A DNA stretch of 64,000 nt, from NCBI RefSeq assembly GCF_008931805.1, contig NZ_CP044399.1:3397370-3461369 (forward strand), in the 5' to 3' direction. This document shows positions 7,107 to 34,291 of this stretch, piece by piece; position 1 is the stretch's first letter, and each line of letters starts with the position of its first letter. The position numbers and the translations under genes are program-made. Below the pieces are notes generated by a model, which did not search any database, was not told where the DNA came from, and worked only from the letters and a program-made list of their open reading frames with translations. The stretch is from Moritella marina ATCC 15381. GTDB taxonomy: Bacteria > Pseudomonadota > Gammaproteobacteria > Enterobacterales > Moritellaceae.

Positions 7107-7547
7107 TTATTTATTCTGTGCAACTAAAAATGGTTGCTCTATCCCGGAGGTCATACTGCCTCCCTGCACACGACGCTGATCGTTTGCCTGAGTAAAGTCG
7201 ATCCTTGCGTACCGACAATTAATTAAATTAATGCTGGACGCATTGGCGGTACGCTTACAATAAGCCTCTCCACGTAATTGAATATTGGCGGTGGTATTAA
7301 ACCCAACAGCAACCATATTAGCCCCTTGGTCCTCAGTCATCGCCATGATGTTGTTGATCAGAGCTGCATCATTAATGATTTGATCAACACCACCTAATAA
7401 TTCCTGCTCATTGGCTAATCGCTCCTGAGTTAAACCAATGGCGTTTTGCCCTAATCGCGTTTCAGTGATCACTGCCGCAGCCAGTGACGTCACGACGACC
7501 AGAATAATAATAACAATAAAAAGGGTTATACCTTGCTGTGTTTTCAT
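7107..7547 (-). CDS. pilX: Type IV minor pilin PilX
   Basis: Minor pilin of the priming complex. The N-terminus MKTQQG^ITLFIVIIILVVV is prepilin-like but lacks Glu5, as is common in the PilX/GspK branch. The protein is 146 residues with a single N-terminal membrane helix. Two cysteines (EAYCKRT and INCRYAR) may form a disulfide. It overlaps pilW by 4 nt (ATGA) and ends about 10 nt before the pilY1 ATG, so translation is probably coupled. Assignment rests mainly on position between pilW and pilY1. Confidence 0.85.
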   Translation of the reverse strand: MKTQQGITLFIVIIILVVVTSLAAAVITETRLGQNAIGLTQERLANEQELLGGVDQIINDAALINNIMAMTEDQGANMVAVGFNTTANIQLRGEAYCKRTANASSINLINCRYARIDFTQANDQRRVQGGSMTSGIEQPFLVAQNK

Positions 7548-30775: not shown

Positions 30776-31282
30776 TTAACGTCGTTTACGTTTAATCTCT
30801 TTGCGTACAAAAGGTAATGCTACAGGAGCAAACTCTTTCATGACACGACGATAAACGTCTTTTTTAAACGATACGACCTGACGTACTGGATACCAATAAC
30901 TGACCCAACGCCAATCATCAAATTCAGGATGCCCTGTGCGTTTAAAGTCGATCTTACTGTCATCCGCTTCCAGACACAGTAAAAACCATTTTTGCTTTTG
31001 CCCTATGCAGACTGGTTTACTATCCCATCTGACTAATCGCTTTGGTAATTTATACTTCAACCATGTTTTTGAAGTTGCCAAAATCGAAACATGTTTCGCT
31101 TTTAGCCCTACTTCTTCATATAGTTCTCGATACATTGCTTGCTCTGCAGACTCTCCATTATCTACACCACCTTGCGGAAATTGCCAAGAATGTTGCCCAC
31201 AACGTTTAGCCCATAAAACTTGACCTTCACGATTACAAATTAGGATGCCTACATTAAGACGATAGCCATCGCTATCAATCAC
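30776..31282 (-). CDS. rppH: RNA pyrophosphohydrolase (Nudix)
   Basis: Removes pyrophosphate from the 5' end of triphosphorylated RNAs and so triggers RNase E decay. The Nudix box is complete ([20 protein letters not shown] followed by VGL). The N-terminus [14 protein letters not shown] is typical. 168 residues. In E. coli rppH is followed by ptsP, lgt and thyA; here ptsP is missing and lgt comes next. Its other side is normally divergent to mutH; here an amidohydrolase gene intervenes. Confidence 0.96.
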
Positions 31283-31665: not shown

Positions 31666-33078
31666 ATGTTTGCTAGTAACAATATTTTAAATAAAACATT
31701 GCTTGCCGCTTCAATCATTTTCGCTACATCTTTGCACGCAGCAGAGCAAGTTGACTTAATGATCACCGACGCAACGGTATTAACAATGAACAGTGAGAAA
31801 GCCATTCATGAAAATGGTACTGTGGTTATTAAAGGCAATAAAATTATTGCTGTTGGTGATGCCAAACTTGCACAGCAATACCAAGCAAATATCGTAATGG
31901 ATGTTGATGGCGACATCGTTATGCCAGGTTTAATTAATACCCATACTCACGCATCAATGACCGTATTTCGCTCATTAGCAGATGATGTTCCAGGACGTTT
32001 ACACCGCTATATCTTCCCACTAGAAAAAAAACTAGTCAGCCGCGATATGGTACGTATTGGCGCAAACCTAGGTAACCTAGAAATGGTTAAAGGTGGCGTA
32101 ACAACTTACAGCGATATGTATTACTTTGAAGACGAAGTAGCCAAAACCGTTGATAAAATCGGTATGCGTGCCATTTTAGGTGAAACAGTAATTAAATTCC
32201 CTGTTGCTGATGCACAAAACGCACAAGAAGGTATTCAATACGCACTAAAATTTATCGAAGAATATAAAGATCACCCACGTATTACCCCAGCATTTGCTCC
32301 ACATGCACCCTATACCAATACCACTGAAGTGCTGCAGCAAATCACCAAGTTAGCAAAAGAGCATAACGTACCCGTACTAATTCATTTAGCTGAATCAGAT
32401 CGCGAAAATGAAAAAATCGCAGCTCGTGCAGACGGTAAATCACCTGTTGAATACATGGATAGCATCGGTTCACTGGACGAGCGTTTAGTTGCTGCGCACA
32501 TGATCAATGTGAGCGAATCAGATATCGAATTAGTGAAAAAAGCCGGTACCGGTGTTGCACACAATATGAGTGCAAACATCAAATCAGCAAAAGGGGTATC
32601 ACCAGCGCTAAAAATGTATGACGAAGACATCCGTATTGGTTTAGGTACAGATGGTCCAATGTCGGGTAATACACTCAGTACAATCGATGAGTTTAACCAA
32701 GTGGCTAAAGTGCACAAACTTGTAAATCAAGATCGTGGCGCAATGCCACCAGTGAAAGTAATCGACATGGCAACCATGGGCGCAGCAAGGGCATTGCACA
32801 TGGAAGACAAAATTGGTTCTTTAGAAGTAGGTAAATTGGCTGATGTTATCGTTATCGATACTAAAGCACCCAACATGGTACCTATGTACAATCCATATTC
32901 AGTACTCGTGTATTCAGCTAATTCAGGCAATGTTCGCCACTCTATCGTTGCAGGTAAAGTGATCATGCAAGATCGTAATATGCTAACGGTGAACGAAAAA
33001 AACATCATTGAGGAAGCAATCGAGTTTACTAAAAAAGTACGTCAAACAGTAATCGAAAATGGTGAAAAAGTTATCTAA
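31666..33078 (+). CDS. Exported amidohydrolase, MTA/SAH deaminase-like
   Basis: TIM-barrel metal hydrolase of the amidohydrolase superfamily. Metal ligands are seen in INTHTHASMT (HxH), FAPHAPYT, LIHLAES and GTDGPMSGN. The sequence around NTHTHASMTVFRSLADD resembles methylthioadenosine/S-adenosylhomocysteine deaminases and SsnA-type enzymes. A signal peptide is clear (LNKTLLAASIIFATSLHA^AEQ), so the protein should be periplasmic, which is unusual for that branch. 470 residues. It stands alone between rppH and the DnaA-box region. The substrate is not established. Confidence 0.8.
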   Translation: MFASNNILNKTLLAASIIFATSLHAAEQVDLMITDATVLTMNSEKAIHENGTVVIKGNKIIAVGDAKLAQQYQANIVMDVDGDIVMPGLINTHTHASMTVFRSLADDVPGRLHRYIFPLEKKLVSRDMVRIGANLGNLEMVKGGVTTYSDMYYFEDEVAKTVDKIGMRAILGETVIKFPVADAQNAQEGIQYALKFIEEYKDHPRITPAFAPHAPYTNTTEVLQQITKLAKEHNVPVLIHLAESDRENEKIAARADGKSPVEYMDSIGSLDERLVAAHMINVSESDIELVKKAGTGVAHNMSANIKSAKGVSPALKMYDEDIRIGLGTDGPMSGNTLSTIDEFNQVAKVHKLVNQDRGAMPPVKVIDMATMGAARALHMEDKIGSLEVGKLADVIVIDTKAPNMVPMYNPYSVLVYSANSGNVRHSIVAGKVIMQDRNMLTVNEKNIIEEAIEFTKKVRQTVIENGEKVI

Positions 33079-33239: not shown

Positions 33240-33429
33240 TTATACACATAACCTATGTGGAAAAGTAATGGAAACTGAACTAAATAGTGCTAACAACCGC
33301 TATAATCGATATTTATTAACAAGTGACAGGTTTTAAACAGGAAGTTATCCACCATTTCTGTGGATAACCTTGTGAAGAGTTTACATTATTGCCATTTAAC
33401 ATAATAAAATACGCATCAAATTATCCACA
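33240..33429. promoter_or_regulatory. DnaA-box cluster, candidate DARS2-like locus
   Basis: Five 9-mers fit the DnaA box. Perfect TTATCCACA is at 33421-33429 (+) and 33359-33367 (-). TTATACACA is at 33240-33248 (+), TTTTCCACA at 33256-33264 (-), and TTATCCACC (one mismatch) at 33345-33353 (+). The pair at 33344-33368 forms a perfect 9-bp dyad around 7 nt. An AT-rich stretch follows (33430-33480). No GATC cluster and no dnaA/gidA neighbours, so it is not a normal oriC. The place, just upstream of mutH, matches that of E. coli DARS2, which reactivates ADP-DnaA. The remainder of 33146-33613 has no gene. Confidence 0.7.
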
Positions 33430-33613
33430 ACGTCATAATAAATATAATAAGTTATTTTAAAACAACAACTTAAAGTTAAACTTGCGAATGAAACATCTAA
33501 GTAACACAAAAACGAGAGCAAAGTCACATTTAGTATGAAAAACGACCGTTAACAGCTAGATTTAAAAGTGTTATTCTGCTAAACAACACCTTGAGGTATA
33601 AGAATTATTTGTC

Positions 33614-34291
33614 ATGCAATCAATCATAAATCCCCCCAAAGATATTAACGAACTCATGAGCCGTGCCCAGAACATTGCCGGATTTAATCTGCAGCAGATA
33701 GCCGCATTGCATCACCTCAGCGTGCCAAATGATCTGCGTAAGCAAAAAGGCTGGATTGGCCAACTGTTAGAATTACACCTTGGTGCAACAGCAGGCAGTA
33801 AACCCATTCAGGATTTTCCAGAACTCGGGGTCGAATTAAAAACCATCCCTATTAACGCGCAGGGTAAACCACTAGAAACCACGTTTGTGTGTGTCGCGCC
33901 ATTAACTGGTAATCATGGTATTACTTGGCAGACTTGTAGCGTAGCCAATAAATTAAAACAAGTATTATGGATCCCCGTGCTCGGCGAGCGTGATATTCCA
34001 ATAGCAGAACGGATAGTTGGTTCACCACTACTTTGGCAACCCGATACGCTTGAAAGTGCGCAGTTACAAGAAGACTGGGAAGAGTTAATGGATATGATCG
34101 CACTTGGGCAGGTAGAACAGATCACAGCGCGTCATGGTAAGTACTTACAGCTTCGCCCTAAGGCCGCTAACAATAAAGTGCGTACCAAAGCGTATGGCAG
34201 CGAGGGGGAGATTATTCAGGTACGACCACGGGGCTTTTATCTAAAAAAAGCATTCACCCATCAGTTACTGAGAAAACACTTCAATATCTGA
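33614..34291 (+). CDS. mutH: DNA mismatch repair endonuclease MutH
   Basis: Nicks the unmethylated strand at hemimethylated GATC when called by MutS and MutL. The catalytic Asp67, Glu74 and Lys76 fall in [14 protein letters not shown], followed by the highly conserved [14 protein letters not shown] and GSPLLW. 225 residues align along the full E. coli protein. Presence of mutH implies Dam methylation in this organism. mutS is in the same window at 45615, but not linked. Confidence 0.96.

Follow-up and report, generated by a model that had tools for sequence, protein, structure and literature searches.

What is the cluster of DnaA boxes upstream of mutH in Moritella marina, and could it act on the start of replication? 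Escherichia coli DARS2 is a DNA site that recharges the replication starter protein DnaA, and an initial annotation of a 64-kb stretch of the M. marina chromosome (64,000 nucleotides, G000:C2:3397370-3461369, hereafter the window) proposed that the cluster is its equivalent. To our knowledge, DARS2 has been dissected only in E. coli. A cold- and pressure-adapted marine genus that keeps the core without a recognisable Fis module raises the question of which parts of the site are essential.

DnaA boxes upstream of mutH

The genes and boxes of the region are as follows:

30776-31282, minus strand: rppH
31666-33078, plus strand: amidohydrolase gene between rppH and the putative DARS2
33240-33248, plus strand: DnaA box TTATACACA
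33256-33264, minus strand: DnaA box TTTTCCACA
33313-33321, plus strand: weak DnaA box TTATTAACA, 32 bp before box I (the -32 box)
33345-33353, plus strand: box I, DnaA box TTATCCACC with one mismatch
33359-33367, minus strand: box II, DnaA box TTATCCACA
33371-33379, minus strand: box III, CTCTTCACA, weaker, 3 bp past box II
33421-33429, plus strand: perfect DnaA box TTATCCACA, 76 bp 3' of box I (the +76 box)
33614-34291, plus strand: mutH

The five boxes within 190 bp reported in the initial annotation were all found where it had placed them, as was its perfect 9-bp dyad, formed by GTTATCCAC (33344-33352) and GTGGATAAC (33360-33368). Its list omitted box III and the weak box at 33313-33321, so the original observation was right and understated: the cluster holds four exact boxes and a third core box. 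Exact matches to TTWTNCACA number five in the window, against 10 expected, and four of the five fall inside the 190-bp cluster (33240-33429). None of 300 Markov-generated 64-kb windows contained four or more exact boxes within 190 bp, the largest group being three (in 3 windows). Likewise, four exact boxes lie in the 535-bp intergenic region, whereas more than three were not seen in any of 3000 composition-matched controls.

Identity and conservation of the core

By definition, a DARS core consists of boxes I-III, the first two of which are opposed (PMC4245941, PMC8682772). The candidate core in the window is:

33345-33379, plus strand: putative DARS2 core (box I, 5 bp, box II, 3 bp, box III), recognised by its match to E. 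coli DARS2 and its conservation in Moritella

Boxes I and II are opposed with 5 bp between them, and box III stands in line with box II, 3 bp off; box order, orientation and both gaps are those of the E. coli DARS2 core. The window core TTATCCACCATTTCTGTGGATAACCTTGTGAAG (33345-33377) is identical at 28/33 positions to TTATTCACCTTTTCTGTGGATAGAGTTGTGAAG from the MG1655 rppH-mutH interval, while the next best match to the E. coli core in the 64 kb reaches 21/33 and the maximum over 200 Markov windows was 23. A canonical-core profile built from 70 relatives scored 42.8 bits on the window (E = 1.9e-13), and the profile of a second module, described below, scored 26.1. ChIP-seq in E. coli identified a DnaA-bound "double DnaA box" at DARS2, which corresponds to boxes II and III with their 3-bp gap (PMC11317965); the Moritella pair, CTCTTCACA-agg-TTATCCACA, has the same form. 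The location also corresponds, upstream of mutH and beside rppH, with the amidohydrolase gene interposed on the rppH side.

The core lies upstream of mutH in nine of 11 Moritella genomes; in a tenth (G009) it is separated from mutH by a transposon, and in the eleventh (G003) it is absent. Core and mutH are 268-278 bp apart in all nine intact copies. Since this distance is unaffected by the amidohydrolase gene, which is present in six of the 11 genomes and absent in five, the earlier suggestion that the site has been kept despite the interposed gene holds.

An alignment of the nine intact copies showed invariant bases in 27 of 33 core columns, versus about 26% of columns in the spacers. Around the -32 box (33306-33322), 16 of 17 columns are invariant, and TTATnAACA occurs at -32 from box I in most other loci, marking this box as a feature of the distal (canonical) core. 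The upstream box pair is kept in all nine copies (8/9 and 9/9 columns invariant), and the +76 position is a box or a one-mismatch box in each. Further elements flanking the core are:

33240-33264, plus and minus strands: upstream DnaA-box pair, TTATACACA (+) and TTTTCCACA (-), head to head and 7 bp apart, a Moritella-specific layout
33396-33411, no strand: AT-rich block ATTTAACATAATAAAA adjoining the core, with 14 of 16 columns invariant in Moritella
33549-33577, plus strand: likely mutH promoter, TTAACA-17-TATTCT, about 170 bp 3' of the core

The neighbourhood of the likely mutH promoter (33539-33585) is invariant in 41 of 47 Moritella columns. The AT-rich block and the +76 box can together be read as a weak promoter (33396-33424) whose -10 element overlaps the +76 box.

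Because the core geometry and base identity coincide with the same locus, and because the core is conserved while the spacers drift, the cluster adjoining mutH is probably an orthologue, in Moritella, of DARS2, the site that reactivates DnaA (we put the probability at about 0.88). Two points count against this reading: the E. coli regulatory half is only partly recognisable, and the species of G003 lives without the site. The initial annotation's reading is thus supported at the sequence level by geometry, synteny, core identity and conservation, and the comparison it had proposed, of box order and spacing among relatives, found both conserved.

The control half

E. coli DARS2 is active only with IHF and Fis at set positions. 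Its regulatory half, made up of IHF sites (IBS1-2, about 93-121 bp from box I) and of Fis sites (FBS2-3) with box V, is required for activity (PMC4245941). The E. coli sequence has a pair of IHF-consensus matches, at +93 and +109 with 3 bp between them, that fit the published IBS1-2, and Fis-like sites around a box at +211. The nearest counterpart in the window is:

33460-33472, plus strand: IHF-like site AAACAACAACTTA, one mismatch to WATCAANNNNTTR, at +115 from box I versus +109 for the IBS2-like site in E. coli

This site is a one-mismatch match in eight of the nine intact Moritella copies, with variable spacer bases and against a loose consensus; the region holds three such one-mismatch IHF sites where about 1.2 would be expected by chance, a weak excess. 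Scanning the region with the Fis consensus, which is degenerate, gave no match at zero mismatches and weak ones such as that at 33379 (one mismatch). Overall, the consensus scans for IHF and Fis stayed at chance level, and only the one-mismatch IHF matches rose weakly above it. Neither a second core-like module nor a box V/Fis cluster was detectable in the Moritella region by profile comparison: the box V/Fis profile found nothing at the expected distance. Consensus searches could miss degenerate Fis sites.

Two boxes were considered as box V. The one at 33421 was rejected because its position is +76, where box V would be expected at about +211, and because it scores about 0 bits with the box V profile; the one at 33240 would fit a box V in a Fis cluster by spacing alone and is not detected by the same profile. 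Judged from its sequence, the site is a DARS2 core with a shortened, rearranged control half, and since this half is unlike that of E. coli, control by IHF and Fis is not to be assumed.

If the site acts as E. coli work would predict, two ADP-DnaA molecules would sit on the opposed boxes I and II, head to head via their AAA+ domains, and a third DnaA on box III would stabilise the pair. ADP would then be released, and the apo-DnaA would depart and bind ATP, raising the level of ATP-DnaA before initiation. Control may differ from E. coli, with the upstream box pair, the +76 box and IHF as possible drivers instead of the Fis module, a suggestion we make more cautiously. Fis is encoded in all 11 Moritella genomes (74% identity to E. 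coli Fis), Hda is intact in 10 of the 11, and DnaA is unremarkable.

Natural variants and a second DARS-type core

In the closed G003 genome, a deletion of 277 bp between TGGAAAA repeats (L053 about 7380-7392, G003:C1) has taken out everything from the -32 box to the IHF-like site, core and +76 box included. The genome has no further core of the DARS2 type; a DARS1-like core is the only one remaining, and hda and fis are retained. In G009, a transposon encoding a 445-aa transposase has inserted at the +76 box and duplicated 15 bp of its target, TATCCACACTCATCA (L052 3740-5650, G009:C1), leaving the core intact yet moved from the IHF-like site and from mutH (core-mutH distance about 1.7 kb). 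The window's genome lacks an intact hda: a scrambled 98-bp sequence stands in place of 190 bp of the gene and shifts the frame (G000:C2:3160076-3160673, L144), possibly an assembly error. The species without DARS2 and the one with a transposon beside the core could serve as natural tests, and the disrupted hda of the window's genome would be a further natural deletion.

All 11 Moritella genomes carry one further core, TTATCCACAnnTTCTGTGGATAACCnTGTG, and the window's genome has exactly one other core of this type:

G000:C2:2596882-2596911 (L051 6883-6912): DARS1-like core, between pta and a 328-aa gene

The second core sits beside uvrB in all 12 checked genomes of other families, but in Moritella it is far from uvrB. 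With oriC taken as the mnmG-dnaA region, DARS2 lies about 11% and the DARS1-like core about 29% of the chromosome from oriC in the window's genome; the corresponding E. coli distances are about 21% for DARS2 and 33% for DARS1.

A second core-like module in relatives

The comparison covered upstream sequences from 80 named loci and from 31 loci in whole genomes. Besides Moritella, the I-5-II-3-III core precedes mutH in E. coli and other families of Enterobacterales, as well as in Photobacterium. Most relatives' DARS2 sites have, in addition, a second module of 5/3 geometry nearer mutH, with a degenerate first box (TTATCCnnn) and a perfect second one. In 55 of 77 pairs the distance between this module and the canonical core is 316 bp (315-355 bp overall), and box V precedes the module by about 105 bp. 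In E. coli its position is:

L001 2952-2984: second core-like module, with equivalents in 77 relatives

The strongest E. coli DnaA ChIP peak at DARS2 is at 2969501 (PMC11317965), and by our reading of the listed double box the second module coincides with it; a partial literature search found no paper naming this module a second core. In Photobacterium the distal core is good and the proximal one eroded, and Aeromonas shows the reverse.

The Moritella core combines the distal sequence and the -32 box with a proximal position, mutH being about 270 bp away and a box standing at -105. We considered whether it is an orthologue of the mutH-proximal module, given the -105 box and the roughly 260 bp to mutH, as in Aeromonas. 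This was rejected as a simple answer because the canonical profile outscores the proximal one in all nine intact Moritella copies, by at least 6.5 bits. It is conceivable, if rather doubtful, that DARS2 was ancestrally twin-core and that in Moritella the distal core overwrote the proximal one by conversion and then disappeared itself; what remained would be a compact DARS2 that lacks the known Fis module. Conversion followed by loss would account for a distal sequence in a proximal position. Were this so, lineages would differ in which core they retained (Photobacterium the distal, Aeromonas the proximal).

Alternative explanations

The cluster might instead be a DnaA-controlled promoter, at which bound DnaA represses or activates mutH, and also divergent rppH where no gene intervenes. 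Consistent with this are the promoter-like pair at 33396-33424, with its -10 element over the +76 box, and the conserved promoter at 33549-33577. However, promoter-like pairs in the region are not above chance frequency, the gene on the rppH side changes, and the internal geometry of the core stays exact while its distance from mutH differs from one family to another, between about 270 and 730 bp; in G009 the core is intact even though the transposon places it about 1.7 kb from mutH. We therefore consider promoter control very unlikely to be what the cluster is for, and it could be a side role of the site.

That the site is a decayed DARS2, whose core still binds DnaA but lost nucleotide exchange along with the IHF/Fis half, is a more improbable reading still. 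In its favour, box V, the Fis sites and the second module are not detectable in Moritella, the site has been lost in G003 and a transposon has inserted in G009. Strong purifying selection across the genus on the core, the -32 box and the flanking boxes argues against a relic. Least probable of all is a datA-like site, which would titrate DnaA and promote hydrolysis of its ATP. Several strong boxes and an IHF-like site would suit it, but datA depends on the spacing of box 2, IHF site and box 3 (PMC4585315), and neither this arrangement nor the datA locus is found here, where a DARS core geometry occupies the DARS2 locus.

Comparison with known systems

Apart from one passing mention, our search found no published work on Moritella DnaA boxes. 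The closest reference is E. coli DARS2 (rppH-mutH). Moritella shares with it the core boxes, the 5/3 spacing, 28/33 bases, the weak -32 box and the order rppH-core-mutH. Unlike in E. coli, where the core is 527 bp from mutH, the Moritella core is 269 bp away; E. coli has the box V/Fis cluster at +211 and the second module at +316, neither detectable in Moritella, which has its own extras in the box pair at -105/-89 and the box at +76.

Conservation of DARS2 is general in gamma-proteobacteria (PMC4245941), and Vibrio cholerae and Shewanella denitrificans have core orthologues at the same genomic position (PMC8682772). By the account of the latter paper, both keep a low-affinity box/Fis cluster, whereas Moritella has no detectable one. 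E. coli DARS1, upstream of uvrB, has the same core geometry as the Moritella DARS2 core, but its locus and flanks differ. E. coli datA is also a DnaA-box cluster with an IHF site, but it lacks the opposed I-II pair with box III and has another locus and function. The core itself is thus not new, DARS2 orthologues in Vibrio and Shewanella having already been published; what is new here is the change in the control half, the pattern of twin cores and the naturally occurring losses.
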